The position numbers and the translations under genes were made by a program. The notes below the pieces were generated by a model. That model was given only the letters and a program-made list of their open reading frames with translations, was not told the origin of the DNA and ran no database searches. DNA of 64,000 nucleotides from an archaeon (GTDB taxonomy: Archaea; Nanobdellota; Nanobdellia; Pacearchaeales; GW2011-AR1): positions 142,395 through 206,394 of the forward strand of contig JABHZE010000002.1 of the NCBI GenBank assembly GCA_018653485.1. The letters are read 5' to 3'. Positions 29,354-55,325 of this stretch are shown one piece after another (within the stretch, counting starts at the first letter, position 1; every line of letters starts with the position of its first letter).

Positions 29354-29695
29354 TGTGAGTAGAGAATAGGCCACCTTTTGTCAAATTTCGATGCTTCATT
29401 ATTTTATAATGAAATTGCCGAACAATTTGTATCAACATTCTACTATGCGTGAAATTTTTCACTTGCATCGACCAAGATACTCGTTTCATCAAATCTGATT
29501 CTTCTAAGCTTCCCTCAAAGGTTCATAGCTCAAAATCAGCTGTGTCGTTTCTGTAGCAGAGCTTTGCTTCGCAACAATTTGTTTTCACAAATGGTCTTTA
29601 ATATGATGGGCAGACCTTCCTCAGAAGTAATTTCCATTTATTTTGAAATTTGTTAATTTAATAACAACCCCCGAAAGTTGACTACTCTACTCACA
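29354..29695 (-). ncRNA. rnpB: RNase P RNA
   Basis: GAGGAAGGTCTGCCCATC (CR-I), ACAGAAACGACACAG, GATGAAACGAGTATCTTGGTCGATGCAAG, GACAAAAGGTGGCCTATT (P4 3' side), and 11-bp terminal P1 helix TGTGAGTAGAG/CTCTACTCACA. Confidence 0.87.
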
Positions 29696-30502: not shown

Positions 30503-33500
30503 GATACAGGTAGAGAATAACTTAGTTTAACGACAAAAATGTGGCTTTTAGTAGTTGCGTGCTGAATTTCTCGTTTCCTTAAAACTTACACACCAACTCT
30601 ATCAACGTTATCTTCTATAACGGCCTTTGTTGTTTCGTTTTGCGGATGACTTCGTGCTTAGATGCTTTCAGCACTTATCCATATAAAGCGTAGCTGCACA
30701 ACCTGCTCATAACAATTGTTACACCAGAGGCTTCGAACCCCGGTTCCTCTCGTACTACGGGATCCTTCCACTCAAACAACGACACACCAAATAGATATCA
30801 TACAATCTGTCTCACGACGATCTTAACCCAGCTAACGATTCCTTTTAATATGTGAACTCCAGCACCCTTGGTCGCTTGTGCACGGCCAGGATAGGAAGAG
30901 CCGACAGCGGTGTAGCAAGCCTCGCCGTCAATTTGAACTATCGGGCGAGACAACCCAGTTATCCTTGGGGTACCTTTTCTATCACAATTGCGCCCCATTA
31001 AAAGGCGTCAATGGTTCGCTAGGCCCATCTTTCAATTCTGCTTTTCGTGCTGTTTGAAAAACAGTTAGACAAGCTTTTACCCTTACACTCTACTCTAGAT
31101 TTCCGACCTAGATGAGCTTGTCTTTAGGTCCCTCCGATATCTTTTCAGAGGGGTCCCGCCCCAGGCAAACTGCCCGCCTGTTGGTGTCCTCAAGAAGAGT
31201 AAGTGAATCTACAAAAAGCAAGTAGTATTACATATTGTGACATGCCGCCTCGCCGAAACTACGCGTATTCTCCTACTTATTCTATGTACCAATCATAAAT
31301 TCACAACAACAAGTTGCAGTAAAGGTCCACAAGGTCTTAGCTTCCCGTTTGGTGTCTCTGGTCTGTTCACCAGACAATAATTTCAGAAGATTCTAGTTAG
31401 GGACAGTGACAATTTCGTTAAACCATTCATGCAAGTCGCCATTCAGACGACAAGGTATTACGCTCATTTGTGTTACTCTGAATTTACAATACATAAATTC
31501 AACTCTATATGTCGCCATATAGATCGGACTATATCTTCCTACAACAAAAAATGTTGTATGTTTGGCGTGTAGTCTCTGAGGATTCTTCTTAATGTTAAGA
31601 AGTCTTTCCTGCTGATTGTCTCTCCATTTAAATTTTTAGGGTTCGTTATCATCTCACGACGATAATATCCTATTAAATTTCTACGAGATGTTCCAGCATA
31701 TAGCCAAATTTTCTATGTGTTGGTTTAATTCGATTATTAGCATTCTTTAACTCAATGATTCGTTATTCTCAAGAATCACAGATTCTTGATGATCCTAAAA
31801 ACATGATCTTATAGATCATTGTTTTTTTGATCTCTGAAGCTACATAGCGTCGCTGATTTTTACATCAGCTCCGTAAGGCAAGTAATTCACCTTAAGAGCC
31901 TCAGGAATTAGGCCCGCCGTTTGATGGACCTTAGCCGCGTTGAAACACGGTTTTAGACACCACCACTGGGCAGGTCTCACTGGTTATACAAGTCTTTTCA
32001 GATTAGCAACCAGCTATGTTTTTGATAAACAGTCGAACCATCTTTGTTACTGAGATCTATAAATGCTTCTCCATTTCTAAAAAAACAAATATAGACACCC
32101 CTTATACCGAAGCTAAAGGGCTAATGTTGCCGAATTCCCTTAACTAGATTAAACTTTCATATCTTAGCCTTCTCAGCTAGAGCATCAGTGTCGATTCTGG
32201 GTACGGCTATTCAAATTCTATTTCATAATCTTTTCACTGGCTCTTGGAATCAGTAATTTTCATTGCATAAATTCAAAAAGATCTAAGGATTACCCTCCCT
32301 AATCTTCTCTATACAAACTTTCTTTCGAAAGCACACCTATCCGAAAGCAAATTATAATGTCAAACAAATTTGAACAGTACAGGAATATTAACCTGTTGTC
32401 CATCGTAGCACTCAATTAAGGTGCAACTTAGGTGCCGACTAACCCTTGGTTAATTGTTATTGCCAAGGAAACCTTGCTCTTACGATATTTTGCAGTTCTC
32501 AGCAAAATCTGTTCCTACTCCTGCCAGGATTCTCATTCTTTCAAGCTCCACACTTTCTCTCGAAAATGCTTCTGCGCCAAAAAGACGCCTGTTTACCACA
32601 ACACTTCTTCTGAAGTGCGCCTATGGTATCGGTGTTATGTTTTAGCCCCGTCCATTTTCAGGGCCTCAAACCTCAATAGGTGAGCTGTTACGCTTTCTTT
32701 AAAGGATGACGGCTTCTATGTCTACCTCCCCACTGTCTCAGGTTTAAGACTCCTTTTGATACACTTAACATAAACTTTGGGACCTTAACCATAGTCTCCC
32801 TTGTTCGGGTCTCGGAACAGTACCTTACGCACTGCCCCTGTTTCTTATTATCAACATCTTACAGTTTCCGAGTTGGAAAGTTCGCCGTAGCAAAAGCGCT
32901 CTGCACGACCTATCCGTACTTTACACCGTAAGAGAATCACGTAATAAGACTATACGTAGGCATATTTCAACAGGAACCAGCCATTGCCAGATTAGATAGG
33001 CTTTTCACCCCTAATCGCAAGTCATCCTAGTGCATGCACACAACAATGGTTCAGGCCTCCATTTTCCTTTCGGAAAACTTCACCTTGCTCACGATTAGAT
33101 CATCTGGCTTCAGGTCTTATTCAAGAGACTAACGCATTTTCATACTCGCTTTCGCTTCGGCTTCCTTAAGTTAACCTCGCCACTTAAATAAACTCCCTGG
33201 CCCGTTTTTCAAGACGTACGTTACAACCCCCCGTAGGAGGCCGTAACCAACTGTAACTGTTAGATTTCAAGTCTTTTAACTCTCTTTTAAGAGTACTTTT
33301 CAGCTTTCCCTCGCGGTACTAGTTCACTATCGGTCTTAAGCTAATATTTAGGGTTAGCAGTTAATTCTGCTATATTCATACATCCAATCTAGGATATATT
33401 ACTCTTTTAGACATATTCATATTGAATCAGTTTACGAGACTTTCACTCTCTATGGTATTTTCTTTCCAGAAAATTTCAACTTGTCAACTTAGAACTATAG

Positions 33501-33806
33501 TCCACCACATCTCTATCTCTCTTTCAAGAGAAGATTCAGTTTGCCCTCTGCCCTTTTCGCTCGCTGCTAATAAGAGCATCACTATTTGTTTTCTTTTCCT
33601 GCTGGTACTAAGATGTTTCAATTCCCAGCGTACATCATCCTCTCGGATTAAAACGTTCTCGTATTCGGAAATCCTGAGATCAAATTTTGCGTGCAAATCC
33701 CTCAGGCTTTTCGCAGCTTGCCACGTCCTTCGTCACAGCTTAAACCAAGCTATCCGTCTAACAGTAATATGGAGTAGTTAAAGCTAAGATATTCTCTACC
33801 TGTATC
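30503..33806 (-). rRNA. 23S rRNA (including flanking processing helix), interrupted by a group I intron
   Basis: Conserved LSU segments throughout; 17-bp terminal helix GATACAGGTAGAGAATA (30503-30519)/TATTCTCTACCTGTATC (33790-33806); exact mature ends uncertain. Confidence 0.93.
31465..31888 (-). ncRNA. Group I intron in 23S rRNA (~424 nt, no ORF)
   Basis: Interrupts CTTAAGGT|AGCGTAATACC; P1 TAAGGU/GCCUUA with U.G at splice site; AATCAGCAGG (Q-like), CAGAGACTACACG (R-like), AAGATATAGTCCG (S-like), P7 GACTA/TAGTC, P8 TACAACA/TGTTGTA, GCGA-capped P9, terminal G. Confidence 0.92.
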
Positions 33807-49944: not shown

Positions 49945-50931
49945 ATGATACGGGAAGCAAAATCAAATGGAGCATATGCAAATATAGCATTTCAAACAGG
50001 GGCAGATGCATCTAACGAGCAAAGTAGAGAATACAATCTTAATTCTGTTAAAACAATTAATCCACTTTTACAAGGTTTATCTAGAAGAGGAATAACTCAA
50101 ATTTTTCATTATAATACTTCTGCAGTTTATCAAAATGGAGATGTAAATGCAAATGGGTATTGGATGGATTTTAGTTCTAGAAGACAAGGCTCAACTTTTA
50201 ATTTTTCTTATACTCCTGGAAAAGAACCATTATCTCAATTTGATTTTATATTTATGAGAGGAGATGATGTAGATGAAACTAGTGTGGATAATTTAAAATT
50301 AGTTGATAGATTAGAAAAACCGGTTTTAGTTAATTCAGGAAGTGCAACTTTAGCTACAAGAGATAAATTTGAAATTCCTAAAAGATTTGAAGAACATCCA
50401 GAATTAATTCCCGAAACATATACAGTTACTTCTACAGCAGATTTAAAAAAGGCATGGGAATCACTTCCAGGAGATTTAGTAGTATTAAAGGGCAGGTATG
50501 GTTCTTGTGGTAATGAAGTAGAAAGATTTCCTAAAACTTCTCAAGGATATCAGTCAGCTGAAGAATATTTTAGAAAAGTAGGAGATTTAGTTGCACAAGA
50601 ATTTCTTCCAGAAATAGTAAATGGAGATATAAGGGTTAATGTTTTTGATGGAGATATTATTGGGGCATTTAAAAGATTACCTAATGGAAGCTGGATTACT
50701 AATGTTACAAATGGCGGACGTGTAGGGCCTATTGAATTAGGAAATGAATTTAGAAAAAGAATTAAGCTAGCTACATCCTTATTTCCAGAAGTTAGATTTC
50801 AAGGAGTAGATTTAACTTTAGATTCTGGAAAATTTATTGAAACTAATGCTTTCCCAGCATCTTTAGGGACTGTGAATAGAGTTTATGATACTTGGCAAGA
50901 AGAAGAAATATTAGCGAGGTTATCAGTTTAA
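49945..50931 (+). CDS. ATP-grasp ligase (GshB/RimK-like)
   Basis: DLVVLKGRYGSCGNEVERF; LVAQEFLPEIVNGDIRVNVFDGDIIGAFKRLPNGSWITNVTNGGR. Confidence 0.8.
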   Translation: MIREAKSNGAYANIAFQTGADASNEQSREYNLNSVKTINPLLQGLSRRGITQIFHYNTSAVYQNGDVNANGYWMDFSSRRQGSTFNFSYTPGKEPLSQFDFIFMRGDDVDETSVDNLKLVDRLEKPVLVNSGSATLATRDKFEIPKRFEEHPELIPETYTVTSTADLKKAWESLPGDLVVLKGRYGSCGNEVERFPKTSQGYQSAEEYFRKVGDLVAQEFLPEIVNGDIRVNVFDGDIIGAFKRLPNGSWITNVTNGGRVGPIELGNEFRKRIKLATSLFPEVRFQGVDLTLDSGKFIETNAFPASLGTVNRVYDTWQEEEILARLSV

Positions 50932-50940
50932 TTTTTAAAA

Positions 50941-52043
50941 TGGCAAAACCAAAATTTGCAGTTATTGGAGCAGGATGTGGGGGTCAAACTTATGCAGGAC
51001 ATTTAGCTTCAGAAGGTTATGATGTTAGTATGTACAATAGGTCTCAAGAAAGAATTAATGGGTTAGAAAATACTAAAACAATTTCTCTAGATGGAAAATT
51101 AACTCAAGAAGGAAGAATAACTCTTGCAACAACAAATTTAGAACAAGCAGTAGAAGGAAGAGATGTTTTAGTAGTTGTAACTCCTGCAACAGGCCATAAT
51201 GAAATTTCTAAGAATGTCACACCTTACCTTCATGATGGACAAGTAATTGTTCTTAGTCCTGGAAGAACTTTTGGAGGATTAGAATTCTCAAATAATATTG
51301 CTCAACAAAGGCCTGATTTAGATGTAACTGTATGTGAAACAAATACATTACCTTATGCTACAAGAGTTACAGAACCAGGAAAAGCTAAAGTTTTTGGAGT
51401 AAAAAATACTGTAGCCCTTGCAGCATTACCAAATCATAGGACAGGAGAAGTAGTTGAAACTTTAAATGAATTTTATCCTGCATTTGCCCCTGCAGAAAGT
51501 TTTTTAGAAACTAGTGTAGGTAATATAGGGGCGGTTTTCCATCCAACAATTCTATTACTTAATTATGATAAAATCCAAAAAGGAGAACCATTTGAATTTT
51601 ACACTGAAGGAGCTTCTAGGAAAGTAGTAGAACACATGGAAGGGGTAGATAATGAAAGACAAGAAATTGCAAGAAAATTAGGAGTAAAAATACCAACATT
51701 ATCAGAATGGTTAGTAGATAGATATGGATTAAAACAAAAAGGACTTTATGAGATGCTTAAAAATAATCCTGTTTACGCAGGAATAATGGCACCAACAACA
51801 ACAGATCACAGATATATTCATGAAGATGTTTCAACAGGATTAGTCCCTCTTTCATTAACTGCTGAAGCAATGGGAATTCAAACTCCTTACATGGATTCAT
51901 TAATCAATACAGCTAATAGTATTAATCAAACAGATTATTGGAAAAAAGGAAGAACATTAGAAAAAATGGGATTAGATAAAAATCATGTTGTTGAGCAACT
52001 TAAAGAGATTGTATCAAAAAGGGATTGTAGGAGAGCAGCATGA
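50941..52043 (+). CDS. NAD/NADP octopine/nopaline-type (opine) dehydrogenase (start at MAKPKFAVIGAG)
   Basis: FAVIGAGCGGQTYAGHLASEGYDVSMYNRS; DVLVVVTPATGHNEI; CETNTLPYATRV. Confidence 0.85.
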
Positions 52044-53629
52044 AAATTCTAGGCGCAGCTTTAGGAGAAGATGTACATGTTCAAGGAGTTTATCACTTTT
52101 TACAAGAAGCACAAAGACAAGGTTATGAAACAGATTTTTTAGGACCTGCAATAGATGTGGATCAAATTATTCAAAAAGCAAAAAATGAAAATCCAGACAT
52201 TGTTGCAGTAAGTTATAGGTTAACTCCTGAAAATGGAAGACATCTAATAAAAGAACTAAAAGAAAAAGCAAGAGATTCAGGATTAAAGACAAGATTTGTT
52301 TTTGGTGGAACAGAACCAGTTGCAATGATTGCAAGAGATTCAAATTTCTTTAGTTTTATTGCTGATGGAAGTAATAACGATGAAATCCCTTACTTTTTAA
52401 GAGACGAAGAAAAAAAAGAAAGTTCTGAAAAACCATCTCAAAATGTTTTAGAAAGAATGAAGCAGAAAAAATCAACCCCATTATTAAGAACTCATTATGG
52501 GCAACCCACTTTAGAGGCAACAATAGACGGAATAACTCAGATAGCTGAATCAGGTTTAATAGATGTTATATCATTGGGAACAGATCAGGATGCTCAATCA
52601 AATTTCTTTCATCCAGAAAGACAAGACATAAAAAGAGCAGGAGCAGGAGGAGTTCCAGTTAGATCTCCAGAAGATTTTAAAAAATTATTTTTAGCAACTA
52701 GAACAGGTAATTTCCCATTAATGAGAAGTTATGCTGGAACAGATGATTTAATAGAAATGGCAGAAATGTATGAAAATACGTTTGGCAATGCATGGCCAGC
52801 AATACCTATATTTTGGTTTAATGATATGGATGGGAGAGGACCTCAAGATTTAGAAAAATCTGTTTCTGAACATTTAAAATTAATACAATGGTATTCAGAA
52901 AGAGACTTCCCAGTAGAAATTCTTGAATCTCACCATTGGGGTATGAGGGGAGCGCATGATTCATTAGCAGTTGCTACAGCCTATTTAGGTGCAAAAGTTA
53001 CAAAAGAATTAGGAGTAAAAGATTATATTCACCAATATATGTTTAATATTCCTCAAAGAATTTCAGCTACTAATGATCTTGCAAAAATGTTAGCAGTAAG
53101 AGAATTAATAACTGAGTTAAAATCAGATTCATTTCATGTATATACACAAACAAGAGCAGGATTACCTAGTTTTCCAAACCATTTAGAAGAAGCAAGAGCA
53201 CAATTAGCTAATTCAACATTATTACAAATGCAATTAAATCCAGATATTATTCATGTGGTAAATTATTCTGAACCTCATCATGCTGCAACAGCTCAAGATG
53301 TAATTGATAGTGCACATATAACTCTTCATGCAATAAAAAATTCTCAAGGGATGCCGAGTTTAGTTACCAATTCTGAAGTTGTTAGAAGAAAAGAAGAACT
53401 AAAACAAGGTGCAAGATATATTCTTAATCATGTAGAAGCAAATGGAGATTTAACAGATTCCAAATATCTTACTTCATTAGTTACAAAAGGAGTTTTAGAC
53501 GCTCCAATGTTAAAAGGAAATCAATATGCTAGAGGAAAATTAGAAGTAGTTGAAAAAAATGGGGCTTATTTTCCAGTAAAAGATGGAAAATTTATTAATG
53601 AAAGAGAAAGATTGGAGGTATTAAGATGA
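52040..53629 (+). CDS. Cobalamin-binding mutase-like protein (N-terminal B12 domain plus MutE-like TIM barrel)
   Basis: DVHVQG (DxHxxG) B12 motif, VSYRLTPENG, FVFGGTEP; C-terminal ESHHWGMRGAHDSLAVATAYLGAK...KDYIHQYMFNIPQR. Confidence 0.75.
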   Translation: MKILGAALGEDVHVQGVYHFLQEAQRQGYETDFLGPAIDVDQIIQKAKNENPDIVAVSYRLTPENGRHLIKELKEKARDSGLKTRFVFGGTEPVAMIARDSNFFSFIADGSNNDEIPYFLRDEEKKESSEKPSQNVLERMKQKKSTPLLRTHYGQPTLEATIDGITQIAESGLIDVISLGTDQDAQSNFFHPERQDIKRAGAGGVPVRSPEDFKKLFLATRTGNFPLMRSYAGTDDLIEMAEMYENTFGNAWPAIPIFWFNDMDGRGPQDLEKSVSEHLKLIQWYSERDFPVEILESHHWGMRGAHDSLAVATAYLGAKVTKELGVKDYIHQYMFNIPQRISATNDLAKMLAVRELITELKSDSFHVYTQTRAGLPSFPNHLEEARAQLANSTLLQMQLNPDIIHVVNYSEPHHAATAQDVIDSAHITLHAIKNSQGMPSLVTNSEVVRRKEELKQGARYILNHVEANGDLTDSKYLTSLVTKGVLDAPMLKGNQYARGKLEVVEKNGAYFPVKDGKFINERERLEVLR

Positions 53630-54588
53630 AATTAGGAATATTTTGTAATAGGGATTATAGGGATTTTAGTATACCTAGAAATGATTTTTTATTAACTATA
53701 AATGAAGCAGTTTTTAGAGGCCATGATGTTTATTTTTTAAAAACAAGAGAGGTTAATGATTTAAGGAGTGCTCCTGCTTCTAAATTAAGAACAGAAGGAG
53801 TTAAAGATGTATACCAAAATGGACTTAGAGGAACAGAGCAAACAATAGATCTTTTTGATCTTGATACAATACTTTTAAGAGATACAGAAGTAAGAGGGCC
53901 TGATTTAATTAAAAAATTCAATCCTTTAGAAGAATCTGTATATTTTTTAAATAATCCTCAAGAAAGTGTAAATGCAGGGGATAAAGTGAATCATCAAAAA
54001 TACTTTGAAGGATTTCCAACAGCTAGAACTTATGTATTAAGAAGAGAAATGACAGGGGATGAAATGTCTAAGACAATTTCAGCAGTTCTTGCTAAAGAAG
54101 AGTTTCCTCTAGTCTTAAAGCCAAGTAATGGTTTTGCAGGAAAAGGAGTTACTAGGGCAAAGAGTAGAGAAGAGTTAGAATCAAAAGCAAAAGAACTTTT
54201 TGATTCTTATGGATGTATTCTTGTTCAAGAATTTCTTCCAGAAGCCTGTAAGGGAGATACACGATTTGTGTTTTTAGGGGGAGAGTTTCTTGTTTCTTTT
54301 CAACGGGTTTCAAAAGGAAATCAATGGAATCTAGCATCGGGGGAAGAAATTCAAATACCTTATGTTCCTTCAGAAGAAGAAATTAGAATGGGTCAAATAA
54401 TTGCTAGAAGAAGTGGACTAGATCTTGTTTCTGTTGATAAAATTGGATTGAATTTTAGTGAATTAAATGCTAGCCCTGGTTTTGAACATGATGCAAATAA
54501 AGTCTACAAAGGAGAAGGGTTACAGGTTCAAAAACAAATAGTAGATTTTCTTGAAAGAAGCTCAAAAGCATTTCATCAATCAAAATGA
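53626..54588 (+). CDS. Second ATP-grasp ligase (RimK/GshB-like)
   Basis: FPLVLKPSNGFAGKGVTRA; ILVQEFLPEACKGDTRFVFLGGEFLVSFQRVS; LNFSELNASPGFEH. Confidence 0.82.
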   Translation: MKLGIFCNRDYRDFSIPRNDFLLTINEAVFRGHDVYFLKTREVNDLRSAPASKLRTEGVKDVYQNGLRGTEQTIDLFDLDTILLRDTEVRGPDLIKKFNPLEESVYFLNNPQESVNAGDKVNHQKYFEGFPTARTYVLRREMTGDEMSKTISAVLAKEEFPLVLKPSNGFAGKGVTRAKSREELESKAKELFDSYGCILVQEFLPEACKGDTRFVFLGGEFLVSFQRVSKGNQWNLASGEEIQIPYVPSEEEIRMGQIIARRSGLDLVSVDKIGLNFSELNASPGFEHDANKVYKGEGLQVQKQIVDFLERSSKAFHQSK

Positions 54589-55325
54589 AAAGGCCAGTAA
54601 TAGGAATAACAGGTCATTTTGATGACTTAGATACACATTCTAAATTTACAAAATATTTTGATAATTGTAGTGAAGCAATTAGAAAAGCTGGAGGAATACC
54701 TTACTTACTTCCTATTAGTTCAAATAATAAGGAGATTAGATTTCATCTTAAAAAAATAGACGGATTATTTTTAACAGGCGGAGGAGGCCTTTCAAGAATC
54801 ATAAAAAATAAAAAATTTTTACCAGAATTAAAAGATATTAATCCAGAGAGATATAAATTTGAAAAAAAACTTATTTTTCTTGCAAAAAAAATGAATCTCC
54901 CAATGATAGGATTATGTAGGGGTCATCAAATGATTACTGAAATTTTTGGAGGAAGTTTAAGAAATTTAACCAAAGAAGAGGTAAAAGTGCATTATCAAAA
55001 AAAACCAGGGTATTGTTCAGTTCATAATATTACCTTGAATAAAAAGAGCAAACTTTACAGATTATTAAAACAAGAAAACCTAAAAGTAAATAGTTTTCAT
55101 AGGCAAATAACAAATCAAGTTCCTAAAGGGTTTATTGTTTCTTCTTATCATGAAAATAAAATTATAGAAAGTATTGAGCATAAAAACAAACCGATTATTA
55201 GTTTGCAATTTCATCCTGAAAAACAACTAGATACCAGGGAAAGTATTCTTATTTTTAAATATTTTATAAGATTGTGTAGAAAGTATTCAGGTTATCGAAA
55301 GAAATGGAATCGTTTAGTACTTTGA
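54585..55325 (+). CDS. Class-I glutamine amidotransferase / peptidase C26-like (gamma-glutamyl hydrolase-type) protein
   Basis: GLFLTGGGGLS; PMIGLCRGHQMITEIFGGSL; ISLQFHPEKQ. Confidence 0.85.
   Translation: MKRPVIGITGHFDDLDTHSKFTKYFDNCSEAIRKAGGIPYLLPISSNNKEIRFHLKKIDGLFLTGGGGLSRIIKNKKFLPELKDINPERYKFEKKLIFLAKKMNLPMIGLCRGHQMITEIFGGSLRNLTKEEVKVHYQKKPGYCSVHNITLNKKSKLYRLLKQENLKVNSFHRQITNQVPKGFIVSSYHENKIIESIEHKNKPIISLQFHPEKQLDTRESILIFKYFIRLCRKYSGYRKKWNRLVL

Follow-up and report, generated by a model that had tools for sequence, protein, structure and literature searches.

Positions 49945-55325 of the window, which here means the whole stretch of 64,000 nucleotides that was analysed (contig JABHZE010000002.1, C5 in our numbering, of the archaeal assembly GCA_018653485.1), hold a cassette of five intact open reading frames, all read on the + strand. 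The cassette combines an opine dehydrogenase (ODH) with a B12 mutase, and these two enzymes, together with the ligase and hydrolase genes around them, are the subject of this analysis. Pfam bears out the five family assignments of an initial annotation that was made from the sequence alone:

49945..50931, + strand: gene 1, ATP-grasp ligase of the GSH-S/RimK type, 328 amino acids (PF02955 1e-12, PF08443 6e-11)
50940..52043, + strand: gene 2, ODH of the acidic-substrate subclass, 367 amino acids (PF02317 3e-43)
52040..53629, + strand: gene 3, single-chain B12 mutase, 529 amino acids (PF02310 9e-12, PF06368 8e-8)
53626..54588, + strand: gene 4, second ATP-grasp ligase of the GSH-S/RimK type, 320 amino acids (PF02955 4e-13, PF08443 5e-12)
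54585..55325, + strand: gene 5, Peptidase C26 (gamma-glutamyl hydrolase / class-I amidotransferase type), 246 amino acids (PF07722 9e-42)

The genes and the three ATGA overlaps, at the gene 2-3, 3-4 and 4-5 junctions, lie exactly where that annotation had placed them, and genes 1 and 2 are separated by 8 bp when the ATG at 50940 is taken as the start of gene 2.

Archaeal rRNAs in the window, together with the closest relatives, assign the host to the Woesearchaeota/DPANN group or its vicinity. The ODH and mutase genes occur together in two phyla. A GTDB scan of 85,462 species genomes returned 44 places, of which 42 are in Chloroflexota and two in other Woesearchaeota (one of them being the contig of G118), and the mutase is present in 2 of 282 sampled genomes of the host's phylum, namely the window genome and G118. 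In almost all Chloroflexota loci where the contig extends far enough, the ODH gene adjoins the mutase gene, on either side of it and mostly as a stand-alone pair. ODH matches in 301 Chloroflexota genomes form clearly separate groups, and the strong group (E below 1e-180) comprises 15 genomes, a set identical to that of the genomes with a type I mutase; the pair lies on one strand with 13-235 bp between the genes, and the co-occurrence is highly significant (Fisher p ~2e-24, a value that ignores the relatedness of the genomes).

A second, divergent form of the pairing was found as well. The 16th mutase genome of the 301 (G468) has a divergent mutase in fusion with MutL (PF13941); the fusion shares an ATGA-type overlap with a different octopine-dehydrogenase gene. 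This arrangement, type II, in which an ODH subfamily stands upstream of a mutase-MutL fusion, is present in ~29 of the 396 genomes sampled from one Chloroflexota class, and 129 of the 396 have a mutase relative of type I or II. MutL is the reactivase family of glutamate mutase, and a counterpart of this reactivase (GlmL/MutL) is adjacent to the pair in some type I operons too. As a co-occurrence marker MutL was rejected, since many Chloroflexota genomes without the pair have it, and only operon-adjacent or fused MutL was counted. Similarly, PF06368 alone was not used for counts, because many weak Chloroflexota matches are not MutE; the one at L062, for example, resembles methylmalonyl-CoA mutase.

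Because the two genes are strictly linked in Chloroflexota, adjoin each other in the GTDB scan and are paired a second time in type II, they are almost certainly coupled in function, and the linkage thereby supports the earlier idea of one coupled pathway built on an ODH and a B12 carbon-skeleton mutase. The accompanying expectation that all five families would recur together held strongly for the ODH and the mutase and did not extend to the full cassette, as the exact five-gene set was found nowhere outside the window in the genome scans. The conserved units are ODH plus mutase in the two phyla, and ODH plus mutase plus one ATP-grasp plus C26 in three Woesearchaeota, window included. The two other archaeal loci have the order ODH, mutase, ATP-grasp and C26, to which the window adds one ATP-grasp gene in front. 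In a midpoint-rooted mutase tree the archaeal sequences group in a single clade whose sister is Chloroflexota type I, and type II is the outgroup; a transfer from a Chloroflexota stem lineage into archaea would be the parsimonious but unproven explanation. The third positions of genes 1-4 are A/T-rich like the rest of the genome, and Lys, Ile and Asn are fewer than in the neighbours, a composition that would fit an old transfer. No mutase relatives were found in plasmid and phage collections. Apart from gene 3, the mutase query matched just one protein in the host, a B12-binding-domain radical SAM protein (L003:487-1938, - strand; contig C5 near 51019-51345).

The mutase joins an N-terminal B12-binding domain and a MutE-like barrel on a single chain. 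Its barrel aligns with true MutE at an hhalign value of 1.5e-11 over 362 columns, compared with only 0.02 in the profile comparison with a methylmalonyl-CoA-mutase-like set, a kinship that was rejected. The AlphaFold2 model (pLDDT 88.5) has GlmE as its top Foldseek match in the PDB (1cb7_B, E 3e-16, TM ~0.6), with ornithine and lysine aminomutases and methylmalonyl-CoA mutase next in rank. Like glutamate mutase (GlmS/GlmE, 1cb7, 1ccw), the protein combines a His-ligand B12 domain with a MutE-fold barrel, and its chemistry would depend on adenosylcobalamin (AdoCbl). It scores 24.1 bits against the curated glutamate mutase equivalog TIGR01503, below the cut-off of 390.1. The residues that matter most are encoded as follows:

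52070..52087, + strand: codons of the B12 motif D-V-H-V-Q-G, with His13 as the predicted cobalt ligand (His13 and Gly16 in 39 of 39 sequences)
52493..52495, + strand: codon of His152, at the position of GlmE Arg66 (hhalign; His in 39 of 39)
52595..52597, + strand: codon of Gln186, at the position of GlmE Arg100 (hhalign; Gln in 39 of 39)
52730..52732, + strand: codon of Tyr231, at the position of GlmE Arg149 (hhalign; Tyr in 39 of 39)

Whether the protein keeps its B12 ligand and active-site residues had been named as a decisive check, and the answer is divided. His13, Gly16, Ser58 and Gly90 of the B12 domain are invariant in all 39 sequences, which cover both types, whereas the glutamate-binding residues are not conserved. 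Position 11 is Asp in the window and Cys in most relatives. The glutamate-binding arginine claw of GlmE, which we take to be Arg66, Arg100 and Arg149, is replaced by His152, Gln186 and Tyr231 (mapped in GlmE numbering by sequence-profile alignment, not by superposition), and near the position of GlmE Glu171 the mutase has Pro/Ser. Arg150, Arg208, Arg229, Arg266, Arg303 and Arg372 are invariant in the same 39 sequences, and two of them, Arg150 and Arg229, lie two residues away from lost claw positions and could belong to a binding site that has shifted and takes a larger acidic substrate, for example an opine. Since the claw is replaced while the active site stays constant, the mutase forms a family distinct from glutamate mutase, from which it also differs in its single chain, its N-terminal B12 domain and its own set of invariant arginines. 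Its substrate probably differs from that of glutamate mutase, and on balance the residues favour something other than free glutamate. The free amino acid that was initially proposed as mutase substrate is thus unproven, because the active site is unlike that of glutamate mutase and because an N-substituted compound, an opine, is no less likely as the substrate.

The family profile of the ODH matches ArODH (1bg6) over its full length (E 2e-101), which identifies gene 2 as an ArODH-like two-domain enzyme. Three codons are of particular interest:

51264..51266, + strand: codon of Arg109, aligned to ArODH Ala111 (1bg6), acid-specificity residue (27 of 27)
51528..51530, + strand: codon of Gly197, aligned to ArODH Asn198, second specificity residue (27 of 27)
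51540..51542, + strand: codon of the catalytic His201, invariant in all ODHs of one alignment

The window ODH has the catalytic His-Asp dyad (His201/Asp296) and the active-site Trp257. Arg109, Gly197, His201 and Trp257 are found in 27 of 27 paired type I ODHs, with Asp or Glu at position 296. The Arg plus Gly acid signature is present in all 27 paired type I and all 14 paired type II enzymes, in none of 13 unpaired Chloroflexota ODHs, and in all six tandem ODH copies of the type I loci L175-L177. The type I and type II subfamilies are ~25% identical, yet both carry the signature when paired with the mutase, which supports an acidic substrate; an acidic opine is likely to be what the window ODH acts on. 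An extra type I-like ODH copy at L172:5001-6122 has Asn aligned at the catalytic His and Cys at the specificity Arg, and is apparently inactive or repurposed.

Six hot-spring ODHs (mODH) prefer L-Asp and L-Glu together with pyruvate in vitro, and swap mutants prove that the acidic preference is set by Arg at ArODH position 111 in combination with Gly at 198 (Telek et al. 2024, PMC10787698). These enzymes were assayed in the synthetic direction only, with a Km for Asp of 0.5-25 mM and a low kcat (PMC10787698). The window ODH is of the same ArODH-like class and has the same Arg/Gly specificity pair; in addition, the hot-spring metagenome was first published in a Chloroflexi study, and most paired ODHs are also in Chloroflexota. 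That the window ODH belongs to the mODH family is suggested by its signature residues, by this origin and by a reported ~40% identity to ArODH. The mODHs were reported without a physiological role or genomic context, whereas the window ODH is set in a mutase cassette.

The remaining three genes belong to the domain families of RimK/GshB ligases and PuuD-type C26 hydrolases, although all of them score far under the curated NCBIfam cut-off of any named RimK/GshB/PuuD-type member. The nearest solved structure of gene 1 is glutathione synthetase 1gsa (1e-8), while gene 4 is nearest to 1gsa and to RimK 5zct/4iwx. Gene 5 is nearest to 3fij, 7d4r and PuuD 6vtv, with a score below the PuuD cut-off, and its C26 triad (Cys111, His210, Glu212) is intact and invariant in all three archaeal copies. 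A relative of gene 1 with 55% identity stands third, after the mutase, in the Woesearchaeota locus L005 (L005:9622-10578). In the archaeal cassette L006, the C26 gene is overlapped at its end by a gene for a DUF3335/C39-like peptidase (L006:10757-11464).

Computation establishes the linkage, the specificity signature of the ODH, the fold of the mutase and its B12 motif. From these we infer AdoCbl chemistry, a substrate, an order of steps, ligations and a direction, and tentatively propose, at a little under even chances, that the ODH and the mutase work in series as the core of a pathway acting on an acidic opine, with the ATP-grasp and C26 enzymes modifying the product. Of the functional claims, a shared pathway of ODH and mutase in acidic amino-acid/opine chemistry has the firmest support. 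The ODH would join an acidic L-amino acid of the Asp/Glu type and pyruvate as an N-(1-carboxyethyl) opine, or split it in the reverse direction, and the AdoCbl-dependent mutase of glutamate-mutase fold would rearrange the carbon skeleton of the opine or of its amino-acid half. With glutamate as the starting compound, either order of the two enzymes would lead to the same product, N-(1-carboxyethyl)-3-methylaspartate. The presence of ATP-grasp and C26 genes in the archaeon points to the addition and trimming of amide-linked groups: the ATP-grasp enzymes would attach amino-acyl or gamma-glutamyl groups at carboxylates of the product, and C26 would either take glutamate off this conjugate or provide ammonia from glutamine. 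For the archaeon we favour the biosynthetic direction, at even chances. A more specific and more doubtful proposal is that the mutase represents a new family of AdoCbl carbon-skeleton mutases that act on an opine, an N-(1-carboxyethyl) acidic amino acid, and that it may form with the ODH an undescribed pathway common in Anaerolineae and adopted by Woesearchaeota.

Several observations weigh against a core pathway on an acidic opine. With the arginine claw absent, the substrate of the mutase cannot be read off, and the slow, high-Km mODHs may leave room for a true substrate other than Asp, such as 3-methylaspartate. The type of ATP-grasp differs between the archaeal cassettes, with the gene 1 relative in L005 and a Ddl-type enzyme in L006. 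Moreover, the cofactor supply is unexplained: the initial annotation had called for a check of B12 uptake or salvage in the host, and in its genome (0.93 Mb, 85.6% complete) neither PduO-type (PF01923) nor CobA-type (PF02572) adenosyltransferase, FecCD permease or MutL was found, which at this completeness is no more than suggestive. The host may take up B12 from a partner organism. Finally, importer and hydrolase genes near related Chloroflexota pairs suggest breakdown in those organisms.

This last point leads to the strongest rival, opine breakdown, which is possible if somewhat doubtful. An opine or its gamma-glutamyl/acyl conjugate, imported or made internally, would be deacylated (in the archaeon by C26), the ODH would oxidise the opine to amino acid and pyruvate, and the mutase would feed the amino acid into fermentation. 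The conserved type II operon, with an RpiR regulator, the ODH, the mutase-MutL fusion, an Opp/Dpp-type ABC importer and sometimes a C45 hydrolase, agrees with such a role. The operons L170 and L171 additionally contain an Ala-racemase-family gene and a gamma-glutamyltranspeptidase, the latter recognised by its 86-93% identity to the L177 gene that Pfam confirms; in L171 an amidohydrolase is present as well. Among type I loci, L175-L177 combine a cyclic-di-AMP-receptor-like gene, MutL, two tandem ODHs and the mutase, with the importer downstream in L175 and L176, and importer parts, racemase and gamma-glutamyltranspeptidase upstream in L177; the tandem ODHs suggest two related opine steps, and control by cyclic-di-AMP is possible. 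The earlier suggestion of a purely biosynthetic opine-peptide metabolite is consequently unproven, as these operons look catabolic. However, the three archaeal loci lack an importer and have ligases that consume ATP, an Opp-type importer is missing from the surroundings of most Chloroflexota type I pairs, the characterised ODHs were studied only as synthetic enzymes, and methylaspartate ammonia-lyase was not noticed in the loci, although no search was aimed at it.

Amide-forming, AsnB-like genes adjoin the pair in five Chloroflexota loci, a point in favour of the proposed core pathway; as a general feature of the pair they were dropped, being seen in these loci only, and their equivalence to the ATP-grasp plus C26 genes as amidation modules is a lead only. 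Two of them (L007:6529-7926 and L011:10830-12158) start with MAGI instead of MCGI, without the usual catalytic Cys2 of the glutaminase domain, and in this recall enzymes of the beta-lactam-synthetase type.

A role as opine metallophore, in which an aminopolycarboxylate opine similar to staphylopine or pseudopaline chelates metal and is retrieved by an Opp-type transporter, is unlikely. Some Chloroflexota operons do unite an ODH with a racemase-family gene and an importer of the Opp family, in what we take to be a resemblance to the staphylopine operon, and N-carboxyethyl-aspartate-type products could chelate metal in principle. Staphylopine-type systems, however, have no counterpart of the B12 mutase that forms the core here, and the ODH beside an Opp-family importer that marks the staphylopine and pseudopaline operons is matched in some Chloroflexota relatives only, being absent from the window, the other archaeal loci and most type I pairs. 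A nicotianamine-synthase-like gene and an exporter were not noticed in the loci, though no search was aimed at them.

It is equally improbable that the two enzymes serve separate uses, an ordinary glutamate mutase next to an ODH that works as a redox valve and reoxidises NAD(P)H in an anaerobe, with adjacency reflecting co-regulation. Octopine-type dehydrogenases have a classical role in anoxic glycolysis, and GlmE is nearest to the mutase in both sequence and fold. Nevertheless, the substrate-binding arginines of GlmE are not conserved while other residues are invariant in 39 of 39 sequences, two divergent types both retain the pairing, and the specificity of the ODH matches the acidic-substrate kinship of the mutase. 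A chance neighbourhood of transferred genes that share no pathway would be consistent with the Lys/Ile/Asn-poor composition of genes 1-4, but is very improbable given that co-occurrence and adjacency recur in two phyla and that the window genes show ATGA coupling.

Elsewhere in the window, an archaeal 23S rRNA gene (30528-33783) contains a group I intron match at 31505-31781 on the - strand (Rfam RF00028, 80 bits), and an archaeal RNase P RNA (29355-29694, - strand) lies beside a tRNA near the rRNA operon.

To conclude, a full-text literature search, which left subscription-only literature mostly outside, found no paper on the combination of an ODH and a B12 mutase, in agreement with the initial annotation, which knew of no described pathway of this kind. 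The pairing offers a physiological lead for opine dehydrogenases that have been characterised in vitro without a known role, and it delimits a mutase family that is B12-dependent, widespread and uncharacterised and has a conserved active site of its own. DPANN archaea are usually thought to be metabolically poor, and the ODH-mutase module is present in one in which no B12 supply genes of the tested families were found. If the mutase does act on an opine, this would be a B12 radical enzyme working on an opine.

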